A stretch of 64,000 bases of DNA from Planctomycetota bacterium. GTDB taxonomy: Bacteria; Planctomycetota; UBA1135; UBA2386. Shown piece after piece: positions 27,787 to 41,963 of the stretch (the first letter of the stretch is position 1; each line of letters starts with the position of its first letter). Under the pieces are notes generated by a model. The model was given only the letters and a program-made list of their open reading frames with translations. It was not told the origin of the DNA and searched no databases. The stretch covers positions 62,001 through 126,000 of the forward strand of contig JAJFFD010000092.1 of the NCBI GenBank assembly GCA_021776805.1. Reading direction: 5' to 3'. The position numbers and the translations under genes were made by a program.

Positions 27787-28755
27787 GTGGAAGATACCAA
27801 GAGTAGTGTGCGCCTAGTGTGCTTGGTTGGTGGAGATGAGAAGCTGCGTGGACAGCTTTCTCTCGCATGCGGATCTGAAGTCAGGGACGGCAAGCCACAA
27901 TCCTTGCGTGACGGAGATCTTGTGGTTCTCGACGCGCGGAACTCGGAGATCGTGAGCGGTGGAAACCCCTTCACTGTCTGCCGGGAGATCAAGGAGAACC
28001 CACGAGTGGGTGTATTTCTCCTCATTTCGCCCGGTGATCGATACTCCCGTGAGATTGCCCGATTCTGTATGGCCAACGGTTGCCTTGTTTGCGACGAGCA
28101 GGGTGACATTCAAGAGCTGGAGTCTCTGTTTGATTCGCGGAGTCCGAGGACAAAGGTTTCCCTTGATTCACTCCTAGCGAGACTAGAAAGGGACTTGGAA
28201 GGGAACAGTGATCGGCGAGAAGCAGCGGTCGAGCGGATGCGCGAAGATGATCTTCAGGACGGGTTCTTGTCCCTCCTGACTGATGCTGAGACGGGTCTCT
28301 TTGATGGGCCATTCGCCACCTTCAAGTTGGATGAAGAGTACAAGCGGGCAACTCGCTTTCACCAGCCACTGTCTTTGATTCTTCTCGATTGTGGGATCGC
28401 GAGTTGGCCGGAGGATGCATCAGACAGGAGCTTGGTCCTGGCTGAAGTTGCCTCGATTTTCCTTAGCGAGTGTCGTGATATCGACACGCTGGCACGATTC
28501 ACCGAGAGTGAGTTCCTTTTCCTGCTGCCAGGTACTGGTGTTGACGGCGCCACTGCAGTCGCCCGACGTATGCTAGTGCAACTGCGTGAACATCAGTACA
28601 GCGTCGAATTCGAGCTTGATCCCGTTGTAGGACTGGCAACTATCCCAGCGAGCGGAATCAGCGATAAGCGCGAGTTCCTGGAGCGAGCCGAGGCCTGCCT
28701 TGCCGCCGCGCGTTCAGGAGCTGGTGAGGACGGCCTATCCGCTTCCTGCGAATAG
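27787..28755 (+). CDS. protein with receiver-like N-terminus and degenerate GGDEF domain
   Basis: GGDEF-fold pattern ...TRFHQPLSLILLDC...DTLARFTESEFLFLLPGTGVDGATAVARRML; signature motif reads TESEF. Confidence 0.7.
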   Translation: MEDTKSSVRLVCLVGGDEKLRGQLSLACGSEVRDGKPQSLRDGDLVVLDARNSEIVSGGNPFTVCREIKENPRVGVFLLISPGDRYSREIARFCMANGCLVCDEQGDIQELESLFDSRSPRTKVSLDSLLARLERDLEGNSDRREAAVERMREDDLQDGFLSLLTDAETGLFDGPFATFKLDEEYKRATRFHQPLSLILLDCGIASWPEDASDRSLVLAEVASIFLSECRDIDTLARFTESEFLFLLPGTGVDGATAVARRMLVQLREHQYSVEFELDPVVGLATIPASGISDKREFLERAEACLAAARSGAGEDGLSASCE

Positions 28756-28830
28756 TCTGATTGCACGCGCGGAACGGCCGCCTCGGGGCTGGATTCAGCC
28801 TCGTGACGCTACTTTTAGGAAGCTGGGCCA

Positions 28831-31572
28831 ATGGCCTGGCTATACAGGTCAGCCCGCATGTTTGAACGCTTCGTCCGGCTTGCGCAGGCGCGAAAGGCGC
28901 TAAAGACAGGCCAATTTGATCAGGCCATCCAGCACCTGGGAGATCCTCTCGTCCGTCGGCACCGCCGAGCAGAGGAGATTCGTGCTCAGGCACTGGCAGG
29001 CCTTCTCATGAGGGCCAAGAAGCGCGCGGGTGCAGGTGGCCTGTCAGCAGCCATTAGCGACATCGATGCGGTCTTGGCGACTCAGCCTGAATTCGACGGA
29101 GCTCAGAGTCTCAGGGCTGAACTCCTTGGGCAAATTGAGAGCGATGAGGAGAGGGTGAAGGAAGCTCGTAAGCTCTTGAAGGAAGCCCGGCTAATGGCTG
29201 AGGGTGGTGACCTGGAAGCAGCACTAACGATTTGCGGGGCCGCGGATCGAGCTCGTGCATTGCCAGTAGAGGAGGATGGACTTCGTAAGCTGATCGAAGG
29301 AAGGCGAGTCTCTGCACAGGACTTCTTCTCTCAGGCGGAGCAGGCAGCATCCGAAGGGGACATTGAGGTTGCGCAGAACCATCTCTGTCGTGCGCGCGCT
29401 ATTGACCGTGGGCTCAAGGGCTTGGACAAGCTTGCCAAGACGCTTGCGTCTCAGTTGGGAGAGGCCCTGGTCAAGGAAATGCGAAGGGTGAGTCGTTCTC
29501 AGGGTGGCGCCTCAGCGCTGGTGCTCGAGGCAAAGCGTCGTGCCGGTCTTCCCGAGCTTGCCCATGTCAGTAAATTGCAGTCCTATGTGGCGGAGCTTGC
29601 CTTGATTGAGGCAAAGCGAATTGTAGAGCACCTGAAGAATGGGGAGCTTGAGGCAGGGATCGCTGCATATCGAGCCCTCGATCCCGCAATTCAGCGTAGC
29701 GCTTCACTCGCTCAGTTGGGCGAGGCTGTGACAACACTTCAGGCAGCGCTTGACCTTGAAGCCAGCGGCAATTTCAGGCTGGCGGAGCAGAATTTCCAGG
29801 AGGTCGCCGACTCGCTGAGCGTGGGAAATCTGCGCAAGCAGGTGAGTAGGATGGCAAGTCAAGCCGAGGTCACAGAACGGCTTCTGGAGAAGGCGCGGAA
29901 GCTGGCTGCCGAGGGACAGTTGGTGGGGGCCAAAGAAGCACTTCTGGAGCTTCTCCAGAAATGGCCAGGTCATGAGTCTGCCCGACGTGAAATGGATCTT
30001 CTGGACCAGGGCGCAGTTGATAAGGAGCAGAGGCTCTCACAGGCGCGAGACCTAGCCAAGACCGGCCATTTGCGTCAAGCCTCCGCGATTTGTCTGACGC
30101 TGGCAGTGCCGGGGCCCTACGGGGATGAGTCACGGCTCTTGCTTAAGGATCTGCAGGCCCGGATGGACTTGGTGCGATCAGGTATGCAGCAGGTCTTGGG
30201 AGCGATTCACAATCGTGGGGCCTGCACCTTGGATGGGCTCAGCCACTGTTTGGGTCGATTGGGGGAGCTGCGCCGCATCCAGGTTGATGATGAAGAGTTG
30301 GAGTCTCTCGCAGATGCCATTGAGGCTGAAATCAAGGGTCTGGAGATTCTCACTGAGGCTCTGGACTCCCTTGAGAGCGATAAGGCAGCGGTGGTCGCGG
30401 AGCTTGCTGCACAGGTCGTGGCTCTTCAGCCCAAACTTGTGTCCGCTGATCGTCTCACCTCGCGGTCGCAAGACCTGGTTGGGCGCAGTCTGCTGAGAGC
30501 TGGGCAAGATCTCGCATCCGGGCGTTTGCGTTCGGTCCGCTCCTGGTTGTCTGCCGCGGGTCTTCTGGCTGGTGATACTCGAAGCATCGTTGACCAAATT
30601 GAGGTGCTCAATTGCCAACTCTCACTGCGCCAGGAGCGCGCTGAGGAACTGGCCGCCGCGGGCAGGAGTGCTATGAACAAGCGTGAGCTCGAGAATGCGG
30701 AGGGTCTGCTAGGGCGAGCCCGTGCGGAGTGGCTGGATGGGCCTGAGGTCCTTCGACTAGAAGGGGAACTGCGAAAGCTCCGGGGGCAAGTAGAAGAGGT
30801 ATCGGATGTAGAGGCGCTCGCCAGTGGGGCGGACTATGACGCTGCCCGTCGCAAATTGGGCAAAATGGGGCCGACCGAGAACCTGCTTCGCACTCGAATC
30901 TATGATTTGAAGAAGAACTTGGCAAAGGCTCAGGGGCTTGAAACTGCCTTCCTATTGCGAGTGGATGAGGGCGGTGAGTTCGTAGTGATGAGGGGCGAGT
31001 CCCTCACCGTTGGCAACGTTCGCGACGATACTTGCGATCTCCCGATCCTCGCGAATCTCGCTGGTCGACACGCGCGTGTAACCCGAAGCATGTCATTCCA
31101 TGGCGGAATGCAGGATCGAATCCTGAGCGAACGCGGTCCAATCGCTGTGCGAGGACGGGAAGTTTCCGAGCACCGTTTAAAGAGCGGGGACCGAGTTGCC
31201 TTAGGGACAGCCCTCGAGCTCGAGTACCGAATTCCTAGCAAGCGCTCTCTGACCGCGTCTCTCTCAATCCGAGGAGGCTTTCAGGTTTGCGGCACCGATA
31301 GGATCCTGCTCATGAAGGATCGAGGTCGCGATGGGCGAATTCTGATCGGGTCAGCGAAGGATTCTCATGCTCGAGTTCCGAATGCTGAAGGTGAGGTTGA
31401 GATCTTCGCGAGCAAGGATGGGCAGGTTCGCGTGCGCTACGAGGGGCAGGGAGAGATGGATGGTCGACCGTTCTCGGGAGAGCATCCCATCACGGCGGGG
31501 GCCACCGTGGTCTGCGGCAACATCACTTTCGTGCTGCAGCCCTGGTCAAGGGCTGATGCACAGGGATCCTGA
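28831..31572 (+). CDS. 913-aa helical/TPR-like protein with C-terminal FHA-like domains
   Basis: Long Ala/Leu/Glu-rich helical repeats; C-terminus LTVGNVRDDTCDLPILANLAGRHARVTR resembles an FHA domain. Confidence 0.65.
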   Translation: MAWLYRSARMFERFVRLAQARKALKTGQFDQAIQHLGDPLVRRHRRAEEIRAQALAGLLMRAKKRAGAGGLSAAISDIDAVLATQPEFDGAQSLRAELLGQIESDEERVKEARKLLKEARLMAEGGDLEAALTICGAADRARALPVEEDGLRKLIEGRRVSAQDFFSQAEQAASEGDIEVAQNHLCRARAIDRGLKGLDKLAKTLASQLGEALVKEMRRVSRSQGGASALVLEAKRRAGLPELAHVSKLQSYVAELALIEAKRIVEHLKNGELEAGIAAYRALDPAIQRSASLAQLGEAVTTLQAALDLEASGNFRLAEQNFQEVADSLSVGNLRKQVSRMASQAEVTERLLEKARKLAAEGQLVGAKEALLELLQKWPGHESARREMDLLDQGAVDKEQRLSQARDLAKTGHLRQASAICLTLAVPGPYGDESRLLLKDLQARMDLVRSGMQQVLGAIHNRGACTLDGLSHCLGRLGELRRIQVDDEELESLADAIEAEIKGLEILTEALDSLESDKAAVVAELAAQVVALQPKLVSADRLTSRSQDLVGRSLLRAGQDLASGRLRSVRSWLSAAGLLAGDTRSIVDQIEVLNCQLSLRQERAEELAAAGRSAMNKRELENAEGLLGRARAEWLDGPEVLRLEGELRKLRGQVEEVSDVEALASGADYDAARRKLGKMGPTENLLRTRIYDLKKNLAKAQGLETAFLLRVDEGGEFVVMRGESLTVGNVRDDTCDLPILANLAGRHARVTRSMSFHGGMQDRILSERGPIAVRGREVSEHRLKSGDRVALGTALELEYRIPSKRSLTASLSIRGGFQVCGTDRILLMKDRGRDGRILIGSAKDSHARVPNAEGEVEIFASKDGQVRVRYEGQGEMDGRPFSGEHPITAGATVVCGNITFVLQPWSRADAQGS

Positions 31573-31640
31573 GTGGTGGCAATCCCGAATAATCGGTCGA
31601 ATCGCCGGAACTGGAAGCAGACAGTCAGGGAGGACGTCCC

Positions 31641-32246
31641 ATGATCATTGCCGCCACCATACTCGCAGCCAGTTTGTTTCAGGACCCAATCGACTCACCG
31701 GCTTGGGCCCTGAATGCCACGGCAGCGGCTCCTGGCAGCATGGTTGTTTCCGGTATGCCGGAACTAACTCGCGCCGAAGCATCAGAATCGGCCTATGAGC
31801 AGGCTAAGCAGGAGTTGCGGCAGCACCTCGAAGAGAAAGGTGCCGCAGTGGTCTCAAGTGCCACATCGGTCTGGCTGCCAGCTTTTGTGGAGAGGAAAGT
31901 CCTTCGCAGTTGGTTGAATCGTGAACTCTCGCGGGCCATTGAGGTCCTTGACGAGGATCACATTGAGAGAGACCACGGCTACAGCAAGAGCTATCAATCT
32001 CGCCTTGTGATAAGGCGGGACGCGAATCGACTAGAGAAGAGCTTCGATCGACTTCGGCATCAAACAGCCAGACAGAGCGAGCAGTTTCTCTTCAAATGTG
32101 GAGGGACGGTGGTGTTTTGGGCCGTCTTGGCTTTGGTTTGTAGCTGGCTAGATCGTTTGACTCGTGGCTACATGACCACCAGACTCAGGTTCTTGTTTTC
32201 TGGTCTTGGGTTCAGCCTTCCCGCCCTCGCCTTTGCCCTCGTCTAA
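31641..32246 (+). CDS. exported/membrane protein of unknown function
   Basis: N-terminal hydrophobic segment, C-terminal TM segments, collinear with flanking genes. Confidence 0.6.
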   Translation: MIIAATILAASLFQDPIDSPAWALNATAAAPGSMVVSGMPELTRAEASESAYEQAKQELRQHLEEKGAAVVSSATSVWLPAFVERKVLRSWLNRELSRAIEVLDEDHIERDHGYSKSYQSRLVIRRDANRLEKSFDRLRHQTARQSEQFLFKCGGTVVFWAVLALVCSWLDRLTRGYMTTRLRFLFSGLGFSLPALAFALV

Positions 32247-32267
32247 AGGTCCTTCAATACCACCATC

Positions 32268-33548
32268 ATGGAAGCTGAGAGATTTGAGCCCAGCGAGGAA
32301 GCGGCGAGCCAGCCGATAGAGTGGGAAGCCTTCTACAAGAACTACCGAAAGCCAGGCTACATCCCTGGTTTTGAGATTGTCAACAAGCTGGGGGGTGGGG
32401 TCTTCGGGATCGTCTACAAGGCGCGGAAAGAATCGATCGGGAAGGACTACGCCATCAAGTTCCTTAAGGTCGACGATGAGGTCGTTCGGGATGCCGTAGT
32501 CCGGGAGCTCAATTCAGTCCGTTTCTTCGCCCAGGTAGATCACCCGAACCTGGTGTCGATAGAAGACAAGGGAGACGTCGACGGCATTCCCTTTATTGTG
32601 ATGAGCTATGCGGGGCAGACCACTCTTCGTAAGAAGCTGGATCTAGGCCCTCTCGACCGCGAAGAAGCATTGCGCTTGTTCATACAAGCAGCTCGGGGAG
32701 TGCAAGCTTTGCATGAGCACAGCTTGGTGCACTTCGACCTAAAGCCCGCCAACATCTTCTTGAAGGGAGAGATCGCCAGAGTCGGAGACTACGGTCTTTC
32801 GAAGCTCGTTTCCGAGTCCCGGAACTCTCTCTCTTTTGGGCGCGGCACTCCATACTACATGGCGCCTGAGATGCTAGAGCGCCGGGGTGATCAGCGAAGC
32901 GACATCTATTCGCTGGGCATCATTCTCTATGAATGCCTCCTCGGTGAGGTGCCATTCAAGGGGGACTCAGAGTGGGAAGTCCTCCGCAAGCACGAAGTCG
33001 AGTCGCCTGACTTCCCTGAGTCGATGGGCGGGGTAGAGCGCCGCGTGATTTCCAAGTGCCTCGCGAAAAAAGCTGAAGATCGGTACCAGTCCGTGAAGGA
33101 GCTGTTGCGGGACCTTCAAGCTCCGGCATCATTGGGGGAGAGCTTGGTGATCCCTCCCCGAGTAGGTGCCCGGGCAGCGGAGCCAGAGGCGCGGCTATTC
33201 TCCGGACCAGGCATGGAGTCCACAGAGCAGGCCTCATCGGGTGTGCCGTGGCAGGACTATCCAGAGGATGACGGTGTGCGTGGCATCGTCGGTGGCATGG
33301 TCCACATGGTCTTTAGGTTGTTCGAGCTAGTGATCTTCCTGGTCCTCATTCCCGTCCGCCTGTTGAGCACCTCCGCAGGCCAGATCTTGAAGTTTGTTCT
33401 GCAACTTCCCTTCCGGATCCTGGGTGTAACGGTCAAACTTGCTGGGTATCTAATGGTCGCGTTGGTGCTGCTGCTTTGCTTGGCAGGGGTTGTTGCCCTG
33501 TTTTCTGCAGCTGTGCCTGACGCAGGCATTGCTCTCATACCCAGGTGA
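32268..33548 (+). CDS. membrane-anchored Ser/Thr protein kinase (Hanks type)
   Basis: LGGGVFGIVYKAR, YAIKFLK, HFDLKPANIFL, GDYGLS, GTPYYMAPE; C-terminal TM. Confidence 0.95.
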   Translation: MEAERFEPSEEAASQPIEWEAFYKNYRKPGYIPGFEIVNKLGGGVFGIVYKARKESIGKDYAIKFLKVDDEVVRDAVVRELNSVRFFAQVDHPNLVSIEDKGDVDGIPFIVMSYAGQTTLRKKLDLGPLDREEALRLFIQAARGVQALHEHSLVHFDLKPANIFLKGEIARVGDYGLSKLVSESRNSLSFGRGTPYYMAPEMLERRGDQRSDIYSLGIILYECLLGEVPFKGDSEWEVLRKHEVESPDFPESMGGVERRVISKCLAKKAEDRYQSVKELLRDLQAPASLGESLVIPPRVGARAAEPEARLFSGPGMESTEQASSGVPWQDYPEDDGVRGIVGGMVHMVFRLFELVIFLVLIPVRLLSTSAGQILKFVLQLPFRILGVTVKLAGYLMVALVLLLCLAGVVALFSAAVPDAGIALIPR

Positions 33549-33549
33549 A

Positions 33550-34203
33550 ATGAGCCAAGAGCTCTCCGAGATTCAAGCCTTGCAGAACATGGAGCAGTCC
33601 GCCTGGGCTGATCTTCAGGACTCCTATTTCCGCAGGATCTACTTCTTCATCAAGCGGTACGTAAACAACCACCAAACCGCGGAAGACCTAACTCAAGACG
33701 TCTTCTTGGGTGCAGTGAAGGGAATTGGCCGATTTGATCCAGAGTACACTCTCGATCAGTTCTTGTTCGGAATCGCGAAGAACAGAATCATCGACCATTT
33801 CCGGAAGCACAAGATGCCCCTCATTCCACCGAAGAGCGAGAGTGATGCTGAGCGCAGCACGATCTGGCTCGAGAACATGGAGGAGAGCAAGGCGATCGAG
33901 CCGGGGGCGGGTGTTGTAGAGCAAGAGAACCTTGGTCGTCGCAAGAATGTGCTCGGGCGCATCTTGAAGAAGTTCGTTGGTGACCTTTGGGAGGCTGAAG
34001 AGTTCGAGAAGCTGATGATCCTCGAGTACCTCTTTGTCATCGGTGGCCGCAACAAGGATGCAGCCGTTAGGTTTGGAATTGAGGACGAGAAGGCGGTTGC
34101 GGGCATCAAGTTTCGTGCGATCGAGAAGCTTCGCGGGCTTGCGAGGCAAAGTGATCCGAACCACTCCCTGTTCGGCGGTCTTTGGAGACCAGGATCGAGG
34201 TGA
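33550..34203 (+). CDS. ECF-like RNA polymerase sigma-70 factor
   Basis: YFRRIYFFIKRYVNNHQTAEDLTQDVFLGAVKGIGRFDPEYTLDQFLFGIAKNRIIDHFRKHK; ATG two bases after kinase stop. Confidence 0.9.
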   Translation: MSQELSEIQALQNMEQSAWADLQDSYFRRIYFFIKRYVNNHQTAEDLTQDVFLGAVKGIGRFDPEYTLDQFLFGIAKNRIIDHFRKHKMPLIPPKSESDAERSTIWLENMEESKAIEPGAGVVEQENLGRRKNVLGRILKKFVGDLWEAEEFEKLMILEYLFVIGGRNKDAAVRFGIEDEKAVAGIKFRAIEKLRGLARQSDPNHSLFGGLWRPGSR

Positions 34204-34207
34204 GCTG

Positions 34208-34501
34208 ATGGACAAGGAAGAAGACTTGGCATTCACCGTTGCGACGGTTTGGCGGGACGAGAGAGTCTCTTGCCCTCACCCGGATATTCTTCGAGCCTTC
34301 CTCTCCGCGGCCCTGGGTGAGCAAGCCAGTGCCTTCGTGGAGTTTCACCTCAGCGAGAGTCAGTGCCCTTACTGCGCTGCCGTGCTTCAGGATCTAAAGG
34401 CTGCTGAAGAGGATGCGGGAAGGGAGCAGCTAGAGGATCTTCGGGATCGCCTGATGCGGTCAACCGTGGCGGAACTGAAGAAGGCTTCTGGCAATCAGTA
34501 G
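34208..34501 (+). CDS. small Cys/His protein, possible anti-sigma factor
   Basis: 97 aa SCPHPDILRAFLSAALGEQASAFVEFHLSESQCPYCAAVL (H-x5-C-x2-C); immediately after sigma gene. Confidence 0.65.
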   Translation: MDKEEDLAFTVATVWRDERVSCPHPDILRAFLSAALGEQASAFVEFHLSESQCPYCAAVLQDLKAAEEDAGREQLEDLRDRLMRSTVAELKKASGNQ

Positions 34502-34642
34502 GCCATCTGCCGCTCTCACGGGGCGCTGTGCGGAAGTGCACGGTCACCTTGGCCCTGGAAAATCTTTTGCGCCTGTTCCCGCAAAGTGAGCTGTGTGGGG
34601 CCGCTGGGAGGTCCCCGACAACGACCTCAACGGAGAATACAG

Positions 34643-35479
34643 ATGTTCAAACTCATCAAGTGGATCGGAATTGGCACGGTCGGCGCAGCTACCGCCGGCT
34701 ACTTCCTCTTTGGCAGCAACACCCTTAGCTATGTGGATACGGCATTCAGCTCGATTCGAGATGAGATCAATGGCAGCATCCCCATCGAGTTCGAGTTGAA
34801 GCGGGCGTCTAAGCTCGTCAAGGACATCGATCCACAAGTTCGCAAGGGGCATAGGCAGTTGATTCAAGCGGAAGTCGAGCTCGAGAAATTGCAGAAGGAC
34901 GTTGCCTACCTTCGCGAGAGCGTGCAGAAGAGCGAGAAGCGACTCAAGGCCGCTTCTGCTGCGATTGATAGAGGTGAGGCCTCATATCAACTCGCGGACT
35001 GGCGTGAGCACCAGCGGCTTGAGTATCACCTCGAGCGCACCTTCGAGAAGCACCAGAACAACGAAGAGATGCTCAAGAGCAAGACTGCGTTGATCGAGCG
35101 GCAGAGCAAGGTCGTTACAGCTGCTCGGCAACACCTCGGTGCAATCAAGAAGCAAAAGAGCTATCTCGTAGACATGATTGCTGACCTGAGAACCCAAAAG
35201 GCTCAGTTGGACACGCTGCAGGCAAGTTCAAGGACCATCAGCTTTGATGATCCGGACACCGCCCTGGGTCAAGCCAAGGAATCCTTGGCGAAGCTGAAGG
35301 AACGTCTGGATGTTGCGCAGCGGTGTCTGGAAGAGGAGATGTTCTTTGACGGCGCAAGCGAGTTCAAGCCTTCCGGCAGGGACATCGCGGCCGAGATTCA
35401 GGACTATTTCTCTGAACAGGGCGCAGGCAATAGAGCGGTGACCATCGAAATGGGTGACAAGCTCAGTCAGGTCCGCTGA
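34643..35479 (+). CDS. single-TM coiled-coil protein
   Basis: TM WIGIGTVGAATAGYFLF followed by long heptad-rich coiled coil; ORF opens at 34586. Confidence 0.7.
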   Translation: MFKLIKWIGIGTVGAATAGYFLFGSNTLSYVDTAFSSIRDEINGSIPIEFELKRASKLVKDIDPQVRKGHRQLIQAEVELEKLQKDVAYLRESVQKSEKRLKAASAAIDRGEASYQLADWREHQRLEYHLERTFEKHQNNEEMLKSKTALIERQSKVVTAARQHLGAIKKQKSYLVDMIADLRTQKAQLDTLQASSRTISFDDPDTALGQAKESLAKLKERLDVAQRCLEEEMFFDGASEFKPSGRDIAAEIQDYFSEQGAGNRAVTIEMGDKLSQVR

Positions 35480-35500
35480 GGTCCACACTCCAGCGGCTCA

Positions 35501-35536
35501 AAGAGGTGACCGGTCTTATGGCTGGTCACCTCTTTA
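35501..35536. terminator. strong hairpin between convergent genes
   Basis: AAGAGGTGACCGG-tcttatgg-CTGGTCACCTCTT, 13-bp stem with one wobble. Confidence 0.7.
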
Positions 35537-35547
35537 CGTTTCTAGTC

Positions 35548-36186
35548 TCAGGACTCAATCTCGAGTTGCTGGATAGCATCGATTCTCCAGAAACGGCCGA
35601 CTTCAACCCGTAGAAGGTCTCGTGGGCTCAGTTCCTCGATCTCCATCCCGTCCAGTTTCACATCGATTGCTGTCCCGGTATCGGTTGGCGGTGAAATCTG
35701 AACGAAGTCTTCGATTGAGCGAACGTAGCGACCAGCTTCTAGGGGCTCACCAAAGCCGGGAACTTGGTAGGTAGCCTTGATGTAGTCCTGGCGGTGGAGT
35801 GAGATTCGGTAGACTTGTCCAGCGATCACCAGATCAAAGGAGTGGAACCTCACTCCACGTGCGGTTGAGTTTGTAATCTCAGCGCTGCTCAGTAGATGCA
35901 GGTAGCCATAGGCTTCGGTGAGCTTGCGCCATGCGAGTTCGAACTCGAGGGCTCCCAGCAGTCCCTCCCTCTCCTTGAACTCTTCGGAGAGAGATAGGTA
36001 CATTTGGCGGCTATCATCTCTTCTCAGAGCCTCCAGGAAGGTGGCAAGAGCATCTTCCGGTGAGGCGTATGACTTGGCAATCCAAGGGCTCTTGTCGGGC
36101 CCACAGAAGAACTGGGCAAGGGAGCAGCAACCGGGAGTGACTGAGAGGATTGCTGAGGCTAGGAAACAGCGTTGCCAACGGGACAT
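35548..36186 (-). CDS. putative lipoprotein of unknown function
   Basis: Signal peptide with TPGC lipobox-like motif (MSRWQRCFLASAILSVTPGC). Confidence 0.6.
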   Translation of the reverse strand: MSRWQRCFLASAILSVTPGCCSLAQFFCGPDKSPWIAKSYASPEDALATFLEALRRDDSRQMYLSLSEEFKEREGLLGALEFELAWRKLTEAYGYLHLLSSAEITNSTARGVRFHSFDLVIAGQVYRISLHRQDYIKATYQVPGFGEPLEAGRYVRSIEDFVQISPPTDTGTAIDVKLDGMEIEELSPRDLLRVEVGRFWRIDAIQQLEIES

Positions 36187-36326: not shown

Positions 36327-37445
36327 ATGAAGCCAAGAAACCCTGCAAGTCTGGTAATGATCGCCTTGGCGCTGGCCCTGGCTCCTGACACCCCTGCGCA
36401 AGATGCCAGGCCTACGAATGAGGATACTAGTTGGTTTGAAAAGAGCTATGTGGATGCAGGGTCGTACATGGAAGGCGAGACTGCCAAGAGTGAGTTTCAC
36501 TTCAAGAATCCCCGGGACGTTCAGCACTTCATTCAGCAGATGGTGCCAAACTGCCAGTGCTCGAAGGCCGTGGTCAGGGTTGGAGGCCGTCAGTACACCG
36601 TAGAAGATGAGCCTGTTAAGGGCGCGATGTATGAACTCTTGGAGTCAGACGGTCAGGAGCTCAAGAAGCGGATAGACCAGATTCCGATTGGAGCTGGAGA
36701 AGAGGGTGTCGTGCAGGTCTATATGGATCTGCGAGGTGTGAAGGGAGTCAAGGAAGCTGCAGTTATGGTTCGCACCAGTGACAACGTTGCTCCAGTCTCG
36801 AACCTTCGAACTAGGGCTCGGTCCATGCAGTTCTTCAACGTCCTTCCGCAGGAAGTCAATCTCAACAAGATGAATTGGCAGGACAAGCGTGAGTTCACTT
36901 GCAAGCTCTCGTCGTCGGTAAAGGAAGACTTCGAGATTACCGGGCATGAGCCGCTGCCAGAGAGCATGGAGATCGAATACAAGAAGGAGATGCAAGGTGG
37001 CAAGGCTCTCTGGACGCTGAAGGGCACCTACGGGCCTGGGGCTAACCACCGCAATGGTGGAGGTGAAATCACCTTGAATACCAACATCGAAGGGAAGCAG
37101 ATCAAGGTTCGGGTGATCGCCTTTGTCGAGGGTCCGTTGAAGATAACGCCCGGCTCCTTCATTCCCTTTGGCATGATTCGTAAGGGCAAGGGAGCGAGCA
37201 AGGAGATTGTCATCGAGTCCACGAATGACTTTGAGCTGGCCTTTGAGGACGTTCGAATCACTGGTCTCACTGTGCCCGACGAGTTTGTGACTGTGCGTCA
37301 AGAGAAGTTTGGGAAGGCTCTGAGGCTAATCCTGGATATCTCACCAGATGCGCCTCGGAAGTTGATTCGAGGTGACTTGGTGGTGAAGTTGAATCACCCC
37401 GCTGCAAGAACGCAGGAGTTCCAATTCAACGGATTTGTGCGTTGA
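36327..37445 (+). CDS. exported DUF1573-type protein
   Basis: Signal peptide, TAKSEFHFKNPRD...VPNCQCSKA, repeated Ig-like strands. Confidence 0.65.
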   Translation: MKPRNPASLVMIALALALAPDTPAQDARPTNEDTSWFEKSYVDAGSYMEGETAKSEFHFKNPRDVQHFIQQMVPNCQCSKAVVRVGGRQYTVEDEPVKGAMYELLESDGQELKKRIDQIPIGAGEEGVVQVYMDLRGVKGVKEAAVMVRTSDNVAPVSNLRTRARSMQFFNVLPQEVNLNKMNWQDKREFTCKLSSSVKEDFEITGHEPLPESMEIEYKKEMQGGKALWTLKGTYGPGANHRNGGGEITLNTNIEGKQIKVRVIAFVEGPLKITPGSFIPFGMIRKGKGASKEIVIESTNDFELAFEDVRITGLTVPDEFVTVRQEKFGKALRLILDISPDAPRKLIRGDLVVKLNHPAARTQEFQFNGFVR

Positions 37446-39100
37446 CCAAACGTCCGAGTCTCGAAGAGCTCGTTATCAGTGAAGGATTGCTCTCCGAGGA
37501 GGAACTCGGCAAGGCGCGAGCCTATGGGCAGGGTCGGGGGCTTCAGCTGGAAAAGGCGATTTCCGCACTTCAACTCGCCTCCGAAAAGGATGTCTATAAG
37601 CTCCTCGCACAAGCGGCAGGGATGCGCTTCGTGGATCTTGAGAAGTCAAAGCCGCCCGCGTCCATGCTGGAGCGAATCCCGCTGGAACAGATTGAACAGA
37701 ACGGGGCCCTGCCAGTGGCTGAGAAGGCAGGCGCACTGTGGGTTGCTATAGATGATCCACTGAAGACCTACGTCGCGGACAACTTGGGCTTCGTGGCCGG
37801 ATGTGAGGTGCGCTGTGTGCTAGCTGGACCGAAGGCTCTGAAGCGACAACTCAGGAGAGTTCTCGGCGACAGTTCTACGGACACGAAGAAGAGTCGAGGA
37901 GCGGTACCCGCTGGAGCTGCAAGTGATGATCCCGATGCGCCGATCATTCGTTTGGTTGAGCGAACCATCGCTGAAGCCGTTCTCAGTAGAGCAAGCGATA
38001 TACACATCGAGCCCTTCGAGGGGCGAATTCGAGTCAGGAATCGAATCGATGGTGTTCTCCGAGAAAAGGCCGTGCTGGACGATGCCCTGCACGGAGCTCT
38101 GATCTCGCGCCTGAAGATCATGGCCTCTCTGGATATCGCAGAAAAGCGGAAGCCTCAAGATGGTCGCATCGAGATGAGGGTGGATGATCGCGCAATCGAT
38201 ATTCGGACATCCTTGCTACCCAGCAACCATGGCGAGTCAGTCGTCATGCGCCTTCTCGACAAGGAGAAGAACCTACTTTCCCTGGAGGCCCTCGGATTTG
38301 CTGGTGAAGACAGGGCGCGCTTTGACAATCTCATCAAGCGTCCCAATGGCATCGTGCTGGTTACTGGCCCGACCGGGTCTGGCAAGACGACCACCCTGTA
38401 TGCGGCGCTAAGCCAGTTGAATCGACCGGATACCAAGATCATTACTGCTGAGGATCCTGTTGAGTTCAACATCCCGGGAATCAACCAGTGTCAGGTCAAG
38501 TCTCGAATTGGCTTGAGCTTCGCCAAGATCCTCCGCGCCATGCTCCGGCAGGCTCCAAACATCATCTTGGTCGGGGAGATTCGTGACAAGGAAGCGGCTG
38601 AAATTGCCATTCAGGCAGCGCTGACCGGGCACCTGGTCTTTTCAACTCTCCACACAAACGATGCTCCTTCTGCGATCACTCGACTTTCCGATATGGGCAT
38701 CAAACCGTTTCTCGTATCCGCGGCGATTCAAGCGGTTATGGCACAGAGACTGGTCCGCGTGCTCTGCCAGGAGTGCAAGCAGGAATACCAACCTGGACAG
38801 ACAGAGGCCAGGGCTCTTGGCCTTGAGATGAGTCGCTTGGACGGAGTGAGTCTATATCAAGCGCGGGGCTGTGATGCCTGTGAACAGAGCGGCTATCGAG
38901 GCCGCCTGGGTGTATTCGAGCTCATGGTTATGGATGCCCAATTACGTGAAATGACTTTCAAGGGCGAGCCGTTGCGGGTGATGCGTGAGTATGCCCGCAA
39001 TTCCGCTGGGATGCGTACCTTGGCTGAAGACGGAGTTCGCAAGGTGCTTGATGGATTGATATCAGTGGATGAGTTGTTGCGCGTGACTGCTGCCGTCTGA
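37442..39100 (+). CDS. type II secretion/type IV pilus assembly ATPase (GspE/PilB family)
   Basis: N-terminal MshEN-like domain, GPTGSGKTTTLYA, Zn motif CQECKQEY...CDACEQSGY. Confidence 0.93.
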   Translation: MTKRPSLEELVISEGLLSEEELGKARAYGQGRGLQLEKAISALQLASEKDVYKLLAQAAGMRFVDLEKSKPPASMLERIPLEQIEQNGALPVAEKAGALWVAIDDPLKTYVADNLGFVAGCEVRCVLAGPKALKRQLRRVLGDSSTDTKKSRGAVPAGAASDDPDAPIIRLVERTIAEAVLSRASDIHIEPFEGRIRVRNRIDGVLREKAVLDDALHGALISRLKIMASLDIAEKRKPQDGRIEMRVDDRAIDIRTSLLPSNHGESVVMRLLDKEKNLLSLEALGFAGEDRARFDNLIKRPNGIVLVTGPTGSGKTTTLYAALSQLNRPDTKIITAEDPVEFNIPGINQCQVKSRIGLSFAKILRAMLRQAPNIILVGEIRDKEAAEIAIQAALTGHLVFSTLHTNDAPSAITRLSDMGIKPFLVSAAIQAVMAQRLVRVLCQECKQEYQPGQTEARALGLEMSRLDGVSLYQARGCDACEQSGYRGRLGVFELMVMDAQLREMTFKGEPLRVMREYARNSAGMRTLAEDGVRKVLDGLISVDELLRVTAAV

Positions 39101-39107
39101 AAGGCTA

Positions 39108-40190
39108 TTGGTAAGAAGCAAAATGCCAGACATCAAGTCTCTCATGGATGCCTGCTTGGAGCAGAACGCCTCCGACCTACATCTTGCTGTGGGGCGGCGC
39201 CCGGTTCTGCGACTTTCGGGTCACCTGCGAGAAATGGCGAATGCTGATGTTCTCAGCGGTGCAGAGATCGAGCAGATGGTTGAGGTCATCGCTCCTGATA
39301 GGAACTTGAGGGAGCTGAATGAGTCGGGTACGACCGACTTTGGCTATGCCCACGGCGACAAGTGCAGGTTTAGGGTGAGCATTCTTACCCAGAAGGGTCA
39401 GCGTGGGATCGTCATGCGGCTGATCCCCCAGAAGCTGCTGTCCTTCGAGCAAATCGGCCTTCCCGATACTGTCAGCTCCCTGCTTGATCTTCACCGTGGA
39501 CTTGTCCTAGTTACTGGACCTACGGGCTCTGGAAAGACGACGACGCTTGCGACCATGTTGGATTGGATCAACCAGAATCGAGATGTTCATATCATCACGA
39601 TCGAGGATCCGATTGAGTACTACCATAGTCATCAAGTTGGGCAGGTGACACAACGAGAGGTCGGCACGGACGTGCCCACATTCTCTGAGGCAATGCGGAG
39701 GGCTCTGCGGCAGGATCCAGACGTAATCCTACTGGGCGAGATGCGTGACCTGGAAACTACATCTGCTGCAATCAGCGCCGCAGAAACAGGCCATCTGGTG
39801 TTTGGGACTTTGCATACGACGGGTGCCGCAAGAACTGTCGATCGAATAATCGACCAGTACCCGACAGAACAGCAAGAGCAGGTTCGGTCTCAGCTGTCCG
39901 TAGCTCTTGTTGCTGTCATCTCCCAGATCCTAGTTCCAACTGCAGATGGTTCGGGTCGCGTGGCCGCCTTCGAGGTCATGATTGCCAATCCCGCGATCGA
40001 AAACCACATCCGGAAGTGCGAGACCTACAAGATCCAATCGGTGATTCAGACGAGTAGGCGCGCCGGGATGACTCTTATGGATGACTCTCTCTTCGATTTG
40101 TATCGAAGTGGGCGGATCTCCAAGGAGACCATGCTCGAGCGGTCCTTTGACCGGAAGAGCCTTGAAGCGCGCATTGGCGCTGGAGCTTGA
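39108..40190 (+). CDS. pilT: type IV pilus retraction ATPase-like protein (PilT family)
   Basis: ASDLHLAVGRRPVLRLSG, GPTGSGKTTTLATMLDWIN, LGEMRDLETTSAAISAAETGHLVFGTLHT. Confidence 0.9.
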   Translation: MVRSKMPDIKSLMDACLEQNASDLHLAVGRRPVLRLSGHLREMANADVLSGAEIEQMVEVIAPDRNLRELNESGTTDFGYAHGDKCRFRVSILTQKGQRGIVMRLIPQKLLSFEQIGLPDTVSSLLDLHRGLVLVTGPTGSGKTTTLATMLDWINQNRDVHIITIEDPIEYYHSHQVGQVTQREVGTDVPTFSEAMRRALRQDPDVILLGEMRDLETTSAAISAAETGHLVFGTLHTTGAARTVDRIIDQYPTEQQEQVRSQLSVALVAVISQILVPTADGSGRVAAFEVMIANPAIENHIRKCETYKIQSVIQTSRRAGMTLMDDSLFDLYRSGRISKETMLERSFDRKSLEARIGAGA

Positions 40191-40196
40191 GCCGCC

Positions 40197-41891
40197 TTGG
40201 CTGGACGAAGACTACTCGGACAGATCCTCAAGGATCAGGGTGTGATCCATGAGGGCATGGTCCAGGAAGCGCTGATGCTTCAGCGTGAGAAGGGCCATCG
40301 CATCGGCGAGATCCTCATAGAACTGGGGCACATACAATTGGTAGATCTCGCCAGAGCACTGGCAGAGCAGGCTGGGATGCCCTTCGTGGATCTTGATTCA
40401 CAGCAGCCGAGTCAAGAGGCTTTGGCCAAGATCGACGGCAGCACTGCGCGTGCATTCTCCGTGCTGCCTATAGCCATTGGCGATGATGGTTTGACAGTTG
40501 CGTTGGCGGATCCTTTGAACGCCTCTGTGCTGAATGAGCTCGCTTTCGGTGCAGGCCTGGTGGTCAAGGGAGTCGTGGCGGATGCTGAGAAGATTGCATC
40601 TGCACTTGATCGCTACTACCAGGAAGAGGCGCCGCTCGCGAAAGGGAAGCTGCGAGATGTGGTAGCGGAACTTGCACGGGAAGGAGAGAAGTTCGACCTC
40701 GAAGACAAGGCCGCCATGGCCGCTGCAGCCCCTGTGGTCAAGCTGCTTAACTACCTGCTGTTTCAAGCAATTCGAGACAAAGCATCCGACATTCACCTTG
40801 AGCCATTTGAGGGTGAATTCAAAATTCGCTACCGAGTCGATGGCGTCCTCTACGAGCTCGAAGCCCCGCCCCCTCACCTTGCCGTGGCGCTCATTTCGCG
40901 CGTCAAGGTGATGGCTGACCTGGATATTGCTGAGACCAGGATGCCGCAGGATGGCCGAATTGAGCTGACAGTAGGCGGCAAACCGGTCGATCTCCGAATC
41001 TCAACTCTGCCGACCATGTTTGGTGAGTCCTGTGTGATGCGGGTTCTGGACAGGTCCGTAGTTGCCTTGGATCTCGACAACTTGGGCTTCTTTCAAGGAG
41101 AGGTTGGGCGCATTCGCGAAACCTTAACCCTCCCTCATGGGATCGTGTTGGTAACAGGGCCGACAGGTTCCGGCAAGACGACGACCCTGTACGCAATGTT
41201 GAGCGAGGTGAATCGCGAATCAACAAAGGTCATCACAGTCGAGGATCCTGTTGAGTACGACTTGGATGGAATCGTCCAGATACCGGTGAACGAAGAGATC
41301 GATGTCACGTACGCGAAGGTGTTGCGCACGATTCTGCGCCAGGATCCGGATGTGATTCTTGTGGGAGAAATTCGTGACCGCGAAACAGCACAGACGGCGA
41401 TTGAAGCCAGTCTGACAGGACATCTTGTCTTCTCGACACTCCATACAAATGATGCTCCAAGCGCAGTGACCCGCCTTACGGACATTGGAGTGGAGCCGTT
41501 CCTCATCGCGGCGACTCTGCAGAGCGTGCTTGCGCAGCGTTTGGTGAGGAAGATCTGTTCAGGCTGCAAGATCGAGTATCAGCCGACCGTGCAGGTGCTA
41601 GCTGAGCTTGGTTTGAAAGGCGACGAGGTCGGCGGGAAGAGCTTCGCCAGGGGCAAGGGCTGCGAGGCCTGCAATTTCACCGGCTACCGCGGTCGCCTGG
41701 CCCTGGCTGAGATCATGGAGGTCGATGAGCGGCTGCGAGCCGCAATTTTGGCCCGATCTAGTGCCGCAGAATTGGCCGATATCGCCCGCGAATCCGGAAT
41801 GGCAGGCCTGAGAGCATCTGGATTGCGCGCTGTCTATGATGGTCTGAGCACGGTAGAGGAGATCCTCCGGGAGACGTTCCAGCAGGATTAG
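40197..41891 (+). CDS. second GspE/PilB family ATPase
   Basis: N-terminal MshEN-like repeats, GPTGSGKTTTLYAMLSEVN, Zn motif CSGCKIEY...CEACNFTGY. Confidence 0.93.
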   Translation: MAGRRLLGQILKDQGVIHEGMVQEALMLQREKGHRIGEILIELGHIQLVDLARALAEQAGMPFVDLDSQQPSQEALAKIDGSTARAFSVLPIAIGDDGLTVALADPLNASVLNELAFGAGLVVKGVVADAEKIASALDRYYQEEAPLAKGKLRDVVAELAREGEKFDLEDKAAMAAAAPVVKLLNYLLFQAIRDKASDIHLEPFEGEFKIRYRVDGVLYELEAPPPHLAVALISRVKVMADLDIAETRMPQDGRIELTVGGKPVDLRISTLPTMFGESCVMRVLDRSVVALDLDNLGFFQGEVGRIRETLTLPHGIVLVTGPTGSGKTTTLYAMLSEVNRESTKVITVEDPVEYDLDGIVQIPVNEEIDVTYAKVLRTILRQDPDVILVGEIRDRETAQTAIEASLTGHLVFSTLHTNDAPSAVTRLTDIGVEPFLIAATLQSVLAQRLVRKICSGCKIEYQPTVQVLAELGLKGDEVGGKSFARGKGCEACNFTGYRGRLALAEIMEVDERLRAAILARSSAAELADIARESGMAGLRASGLRAVYDGLSTVEEILRETFQQD

Positions 41892-41963
41892 GGAGCGAAA
41901 TAGCTGCTTGACGGGGCCTCCTCCCATGGCTAAGTTCCCCGCCCTGCCACTAGGCCCAAGACC

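Follow-up and report, generated by a model that had tools for sequence, protein, structure and literature searches.

A conserved gene cluster of Planctomycetota combining an ECF sigma factor, a membrane Hanks-type kinase and a putative zinc-finger anti-sigma factor

The succession, on a planctomycetal contig, of genes for a Hanks-type kinase, a sigma factor and a small Cys/His protein raises the question of whether these neighbours form a signalling system and, if so, on which protein the kinase would act. The stretch of DNA analysed here (64,000 nucleotides, hereafter the window) is part of a 5.2 Mb draft genome. The sequence-only reading, made from the letters and ORFs of this stretch, had proposed seven co-directional genes spanning positions 27787-35479 and ending at a hairpin, and all the ORFs were found on the + strand at the following coordinates:

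27787..28755, + strand: degenerate GGDEF gene, REC-like and GGDEF domains (Pfam GGDEF, 5e-9), member of the cluster at the order level
28831..31572, + strand: FHA gene, TPR-like N-terminal region and tandem FHA C-terminal region, putative scaffold
31641..32246, + strand: TM gene, predicted exported or membrane protein (hydropathy)
32268..33548, + strand: kinase gene, Hanks-type Ser/Thr kinase (Pfam Pkinase, 1.3e-42)
33550..34203, + strand: sigma gene, ECF sigma factor with regions 2 and 4 (Sigma70_r2, TIGR02937)
34208..34501, + strand: CYS gene, small zinc-finger anti-sigma candidate with Cys/His ligands
34643..35479, + strand: coiled-coil gene, hydrophobic N-terminus, orthologs across the phylum
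35500..35535, + strand: terminator-like hairpin closing the cluster (-31.1 kcal/mol, z -5.4)

The genes are separated by 1 to about 75 nt, except for 141 nt ahead of the coiled-coil gene, and none of 200 shuffled sequences was as stable as the hairpin 3' of the latter. The kinase and sigma assignments were confirmed by profile searches (Pkinase, 1e-42; Sigma70_r2, 1e-18; TIGR02937 above cut-off), as was the GGDEF-like one (Pfam E-value 5e-9), the signature itself reading TESEF. The FHA-like assignment also stood: the Pfam search of the window protein itself gave no FHA detection, but the orthologs L136, L140 and L146 score above the cut-off for FHA (PF00498) and the fold model described below is confident. 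Past the terminator, a small lipoprotein-like gene (35548-36186, - strand) occupies the same place in several genomes.

Conservation and organisation of the cluster

Profile-search synteny revealed the order rplM-rpsI-yebC-GGDEF-FHA-TM-kinase-sigma-CYS-coiled coil throughout the family of the window. The sigma factor is found once per genome in nearly all genomes of this family (55-73% identity), shares 33-56% identity with its counterparts in other families of the order, and its profile matches 105 of 154 genomes of the class and 81 of the 392 genomes sampled across the phylum. Orthologs of the coiled-coil protein were retrieved from 88 of these 392 genomes (E<=1e-12), and the best relatives in named genomes, 79 distinct loci in all, belong to records labelled Planctomycetota (or members of it) or bacterial MAGs. 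The neighbourhood, whose conservation had been suggested as a check, thus spans the phylum sample, which strongly contradicts a synteny limited to close strains. Since it is conserved across genera and families, the cluster is not a product of chance; it is real and ancient. At the level of sequence, these comparisons show a conserved, mostly single-copy module made of an ECF sigma factor, CYS, a membrane Hanks kinase and the FHA, TM and coiled-coil proteins.

The carriers of the module include the complete genome of Poly30, which we take to be Saltatorellus ferox (a genus present in the NCBI taxonomy). Its family, f8, has the order rplM-rpsI-yebC-GGDEF-FHA-kinase-sigma; CYS forms part of the sigma protein there, and the coiled-coil gene is absent. 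In more distant Planctomycetota families the core sits away from rplM-rpsI-yebC and is reordered as coiled coil-FHA-kinase-TM-sigma, with CYS next to it, fused or elsewhere; the protein encoded between kinase and sigma in these families resembles the TM protein of the window, with which it shares a GYY-type motif and the two TM segments at the C-terminus. By the same profile-search synteny, the GGDEF gene is absent from the clusters of these distant families. Of the partners that had been added to the kinase-sigma pair in the sequence-only reading, the FHA, TM and coiled-coil proteins therefore recur in distant clusters, whereas the GGDEF protein is an addition at the level of the order and looks enzymatically dead.

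The association between sigma and CYS is particularly tight. Among the 392 genomes searched, 80 of the 85 that have either gene have both, one having sigma only and four CYS only (the Fisher p-value of 2e-77 being inflated through shared ancestry). Both genes were retained at distances of 0.5-3.7 Mb from each other in eleven genomes examined, most of which belong to one distant family; therefore, linkage alone does not explain their co-occurrence. CYS is a separate gene directly 3' of sigma in the family of the window and in others, while the two form a single polypeptide in 33 of the 34 loci of the Saltatorellus-like family f8, the 34th stopping at a contig edge, as well as in further families (L137, L142, L203, L207-209).

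Other features of the neighbourhood vary between families. Family f6 often has two tandem kinase genes ahead of sigma (L129-L131, L133, L068, L078, L093, L094). None of the sigma, CYS and coiled-coil profiles matched the sampled genomes of families f5 and f7, from the same order, which suggests that the module was lost in both. Downstream of the cluster (36327-41900 in the window) are a conserved exported-looking protein and GspE/PilB-like matches, also found near the cluster in several genomes of f1, f2 and f8; from these neighbours, a pilus or secretion connection to the sigma system is possible.

The kinase, FHA, membrane and GGDEF proteins

Hydropathy places a cytoplasmic domain at the front of the kinase and two TM segments at its C-terminus, and the catalytic Lys, Asp and Asn residues are retained, as expected of a Hanks-type enzyme. 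HFD in place of HRD and DYG in place of DFG had been pointed out as peculiarities of its sequence; both are present, and they are characteristic of the family rather than local oddities. Among 88 orthologs, AIK, AVK or ALK is found in 84 (the remainder being gaps), GDYG in 81, and HFDLKPxN or HRDLKPxN in the large majority, with HFD in most.

The FHA protein was modeled using AlphaFold2 as tandem beta domains (mean pLDDT 93.5), and Foldseek matched this model to OdhI, GarA, Rad53 and the tandem FHA domains of EssC. The residues known for phosphothreonine binding (R, S-x-x-H, N-G) are replaced by GN...AGRH...VRG in the window, while the ortholog L136 retains SRVH and VNG. Judging from these residues, it is doubtful that the FHA protein reads phosphorylation in the family of the window, and because they are partly lost there, a role as scaffold rather than phospho-reader is possible.

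The TM protein has hydrophobic segments at residues 149-167 and 183-201, both C-terminal, and a [T]xGY(M/Y) motif; its 35 orthologs belong to two families. From its sequence, it is likely to be an envelope sensor. The coiled-coil protein could not be placed in a known family, as searches against Pfam, NCBIfam and PDB sequences gave generic coiled-coil matches only; by sequence searching, no curated family was found for the CYS, TM and coiled-coil proteins of the window.

An active diguanylate cyclase was rejected for the GGDEF protein, given that the GG(D/E)EF active site is found in none of its 59 orthologs. The I-site RxxD is present in all 59 as RDTD or RDID (RDID in the window). PopA and PelD are degenerate GGDEF proteins that act as c-di-GMP receptors, and the protein described here resembles them in having lost the GGDEF signature and kept the RxxD I-site. 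It differs from them in adjoining a sigma-factor module, and its c-di-GMP binding is putative; a function as c-di-GMP receptor is thus possible on these residues. The RsiG-WhiG-c-di-GMP complex (7lq4) is a separate precedent, in which c-di-GMP acts on a sigma/anti-sigma pair.

A promoter-like element of the cluster

Alignment of the gaps upstream of the coiled-coil genes revealed a two-part element of ECF type, approximately GAATAGTC-N12/13-CGNA, at the same place and with fixed spacing in most genomes of the family; it also precedes the FHA and TM genes. A GAAT-like box followed at about 15 nt by CGNA is the form taken by ECF promoters of the SigW type. Three such sites are predicted in the window:

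28749..28776, + strand: predicted ECF-type promoter of the FHA gene, CGAATAGTC-N12-CGGA (PWM score 17.5)
31586..31613, + strand: predicted ECF-type promoter of the TM gene, CGAATAATC...CGGA, spacer 1 nt shorter (PWM score 11.7)
34559..34586, + strand: predicted ECF-type promoter of the coiled-coil gene, AAATCTTT-N12-CGCA (from the alignment)

A position weight matrix built solely from the coiled-coil promoters (99% background level, 9.4) gave scores above background in 10 of 29 FHA gaps and 16 of 31 TM gaps, and in 0, 1, 0 and 0 of the GGDEF, kinase, sigma and CYS gaps, respectively. With a strict regular expression, the element was recovered before the coiled-coil (17/30), TM (6/26) and FHA genes (4/25), before none of the other cluster genes and in none of 6000 background sequences. 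Its FHA and TM copies are weak in a number of the genomes, and family f8 has a variant before the FHA gene (12/25, for a background of 0.4%). A search of the region for sigma-70-type promoters gave one, for 2.4 expected by chance. Between the element and the start codon, many coiled-coil 5' leaders (e.g. L116, L121, L118) have a short inverted repeat, for example GGAGCC...GGCTCC.

With ECF-type elements ahead of the FHA, TM and coiled-coil genes, the cluster is better understood as a number of transcription units that share one regulator; of the seven-gene operon initially proposed, the set of neighbouring co-directional genes was retained and the single unit was not. Beyond the cluster, a search of 34 genomes returned 19 matches, 12 of them the coiled-coil promoter, and none with the reversed pattern. 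The regular expression located the element before orthologous exported TPR genes in 8 of 22 genomes (in seven of the eight at -33 or -36 relative to the aligned start), before exported CarboxypepD-reg proteins in two genomes and, likewise in two genomes, before a second kinase belonging to the kinase family of the cluster (L240 in G006 and L245 in G026). These second kinases are encoded on contigs other than that of the cluster, with the element 25-78 nt 5' of the start. In the genome of the window itself, a search with the RAATCTT variant yielded mostly sites without clear target.

Because the element precedes genes of the cluster and a few exported-protein genes elsewhere, autoregulation is implied: the sequences indicate that the cluster is controlled by its own sigma factor, a tie that rests on position and co-conservation. 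A different reading is that the genes are vertically kept neighbours only loosely tied in function and that the promoter-like element serves another regulator. The persistence of the rplM-rpsI-yebC synteny would agree with it, ribosomal neighbourhoods being often kept without functional linkage, and so would the further ECF sigma factors present in the same genomes. We consider it very improbable: the core regroups in another order, off rplM-rpsI-yebC, in distant families, sigma and CYS co-occur when unlinked and exist as a gene fusion, and the element is centred on the sigma cluster.

The sigma factor, CYS and a possible switch

The sigma factor was assigned to the ECF type (group 4) with Sigma70_r2 at 67 bits (cut-off 24) and TIGR02937 at 65.7 bits (cut-off 42.9, residues 19-196), and the alignment shows a conserved C-terminal tail, LFxGLWxPGxR. 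In region 2.2, where the window reads TAED, the acidic residues are kept in the orthologs (E45 in 19/20, D46 in 20/20, [DE]50 in 19/20), residue 43 being Thr in 9 of 20 and Ala in 10; no conservation of Ser/Thr was seen in the linker.

CYS is a protein of 97 residues, in which W15, C22, H47, C53 and C56 are invariant in 36 of 36 distinct sequences. Its ligand pattern, C22-x24-H47-x5-C53-x2-C56, departs in its H-x5-C spacing from the usual ZAS motif, H-x3-C-x2-C with a His/Cys about 25 residues upstream. A Ser/Thr is conserved at position 21 in 36/36 sequences and, in the Ser85-Ser/Thr86 pair near the C-terminus, at position 86 in 35/36. The zf-HC2 domain was detected in 8 of 39 members, the CYS of the window not being among them, and the latter gave no significant match against PDB sequences. 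The orthologs L136, L139 and L141 have an extra N-terminal finger of zf-HC2 type and are thus double-finger proteins. In the AlphaFold2 model of the Poly30 fusion, the sigma-2, sigma-4 and CYS domains are confident (mean pLDDT 88), their relative placement being unreliable (pTM 0.59); the CYS domain is helical with the ligands at helix ends, and the best PDB matches of the model are ECF sigma factors with anti-sigma factors or within RNA polymerase. From these features, we infer that CYS is a ZAS-like zinc-finger anti-sigma factor that binds and holds sigma.

The sequence-only reading had suggested a sigma activity controlled by phosphorylation. The conserved association of kinase, sigma and an anti-sigma-like protein agrees with this idea, whereas direct activation of sigma is disfavoured by the region 2.2 acids. 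ECF43 factors (Vibrio parahaemolyticus EcfP/PknT, Xanthomonas citri EcfK/PknS) likewise have a membrane Hanks kinase beside an ECF sigma, and EcfP-type sigma factors lack the acidic residues of region 2.2, according to the review PMC8103513. In ECF43 most or all of the DAED acids are missing and the sigma factors are themselves phosphorylated; the sigma factor of the window keeps its acids, has a zinc-finger partner and does not show the uncharged replacement of DAED with a phosphorylatable Thr. As the acids are kept, phosphorylation of sigma would not be needed for core polymerase binding. The kinase could nevertheless phosphorylate sigma directly, as in EcfP/PknT or EcfK/PknS, leaving CYS as a minor or structural partner: the kinase gene adjoins sigma (stop 33548, start 33550), Thr43 lies in the region 2.2 motif in 9/20 orthologs, and EcfK keeps one acid yet is phospho-activated, linker included. 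We hold this to be unlikely, since with E45, D46 and [DE]50 in place there is no missing charge to supply, Thr43 is Ala in 10/20 orthologs, the linker Ser/Thr are variable, and CYS is conserved wherever sigma occurs.

A better target would be CYS. In Mycobacterium tuberculosis, PknB phosphorylates the anti-sigma factor RshA, releasing SigH (PMC13147305, PMC8999054). This system likewise associates an ECF sigma, a soluble zinc-binding anti-sigma factor and a Hanks kinase, the mechanism in the window being a proposal. PknB is a PASTA-type general kinase and is not known to be specific to the SigH/RshA locus; in the window, the kinase has dedicated neighbours in the FHA scaffold, the TM protein and the coiled-coil protein. 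CYS differs further from RshA in the spacing of its zinc motif and in the existence of sigma-CYS fusions. Action of the kinase on CYS is favoured because the sigma acids are kept, the Ser/Thr residues of CYS are conserved and SigH/RshA/PknB offers a precedent; by sequence and analogy, CYS therefore appears a better kinase target than sigma.

The best explanation, to which we give a probability of roughly 55%, is a self-activating envelope-signalling sigma switch composed of the kinase, the FHA scaffold and the CYS brake. As a ZAS-like anti-sigma factor, CYS would bind sigma and hold it. An envelope condition would be sensed by the TM protein, the membrane part of the kinase or both, whereupon the kinase, with the TPR/FHA scaffold organising it, would phosphorylate CYS, for which Ser21 or Ser85-Thr86 are candidate sites, and sigma would be freed. 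Free sigma would then drive its own cluster (FHA; TM-kinase-sigma-CYS; coiled coil) and also a few exported-protein genes. In the order of the window, the catalytically dead GGDEF protein with its intact I-site may add a c-di-GMP input.

Against this explanation stand the unusual ligand spacing of CYS, the lack of a zf-HC2 or PDB sequence match for the window protein, the partial loss of the phosphothreonine-binding residues of the FHA protein and the weakness of the FHA and TM promoter elements in a number of genomes. In addition, the C-terminally fused CYS could be an activating domain as in CorE. CYS would then be a positive metal- or redox-sensing sigma domain, of the kind of the CorE C-terminal extension, and the kinase would act upstream or elsewhere. 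Such a role would fit the fusion of CYS to the sigma C-terminus in several lineages, the invariant Cys/His ligands, and the cysteine-rich C-terminal extensions of CorE-like ECFs, which activate on metal. We judge it quite unlikely, given that a separate CYS gene right after sigma occupies the usual anti-sigma position, L136 and L139 carry the additional zf-HC2-type finger (HxxxCxxC), and the AlphaFold2 layout is helical and ZAS-like.

Taken singly, the components of the proposed switch are of known kinds: kinase-linked ECF sigmas, zinc-finger anti-sigma factors, fused anti-sigma domains and FHA proteins. Planctomycetes are among the phyla used for ECF classification, and their STPK-linked groups (ECF59, former ECF60; Jogler et al. 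2012) resemble the present system in their kinase-linked ECFs; the account of ECF59/ECF60 in the consulted part of PMC8103513 makes no mention of the FHA/TM/CYS/coiled-coil set or of the promoter element. No description of the combination, of the CYS, TM and coiled-coil families, of the promoter element or of the dead GGDEF protein was encountered in the literature examined; the sigma group itself may already be described in the main ECF classification papers. We thus propose only tentatively, and at somewhat less than even odds, that this is an undescribed, Planctomycetota-specific sigma system with its dedicated kinase, FHA scaffold, TM sensor, a new family of zinc-finger anti-sigma factors that became fused to sigma several times during evolution, a coiled-coil effector outside the known families, autoregulation by way of its own promoter class and, in one order, a c-di-GMP link provided by the dead GGDEF receptor.

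According to one review (PMC8103513), the mechanistic study of STPK-regulated ECF sigma factors is only beginning. The cluster offers a well-delimited system open to experiment, in that the module is mostly single-copy, comes with a probable anti-sigma factor, a probable promoter and a few target genes, and has a member in the completely sequenced Poly30. The nature of these targets and of the coiled-coil protein directs attention to the cell envelope, and the unusual biology of the planctomycete envelope is a long-standing question.
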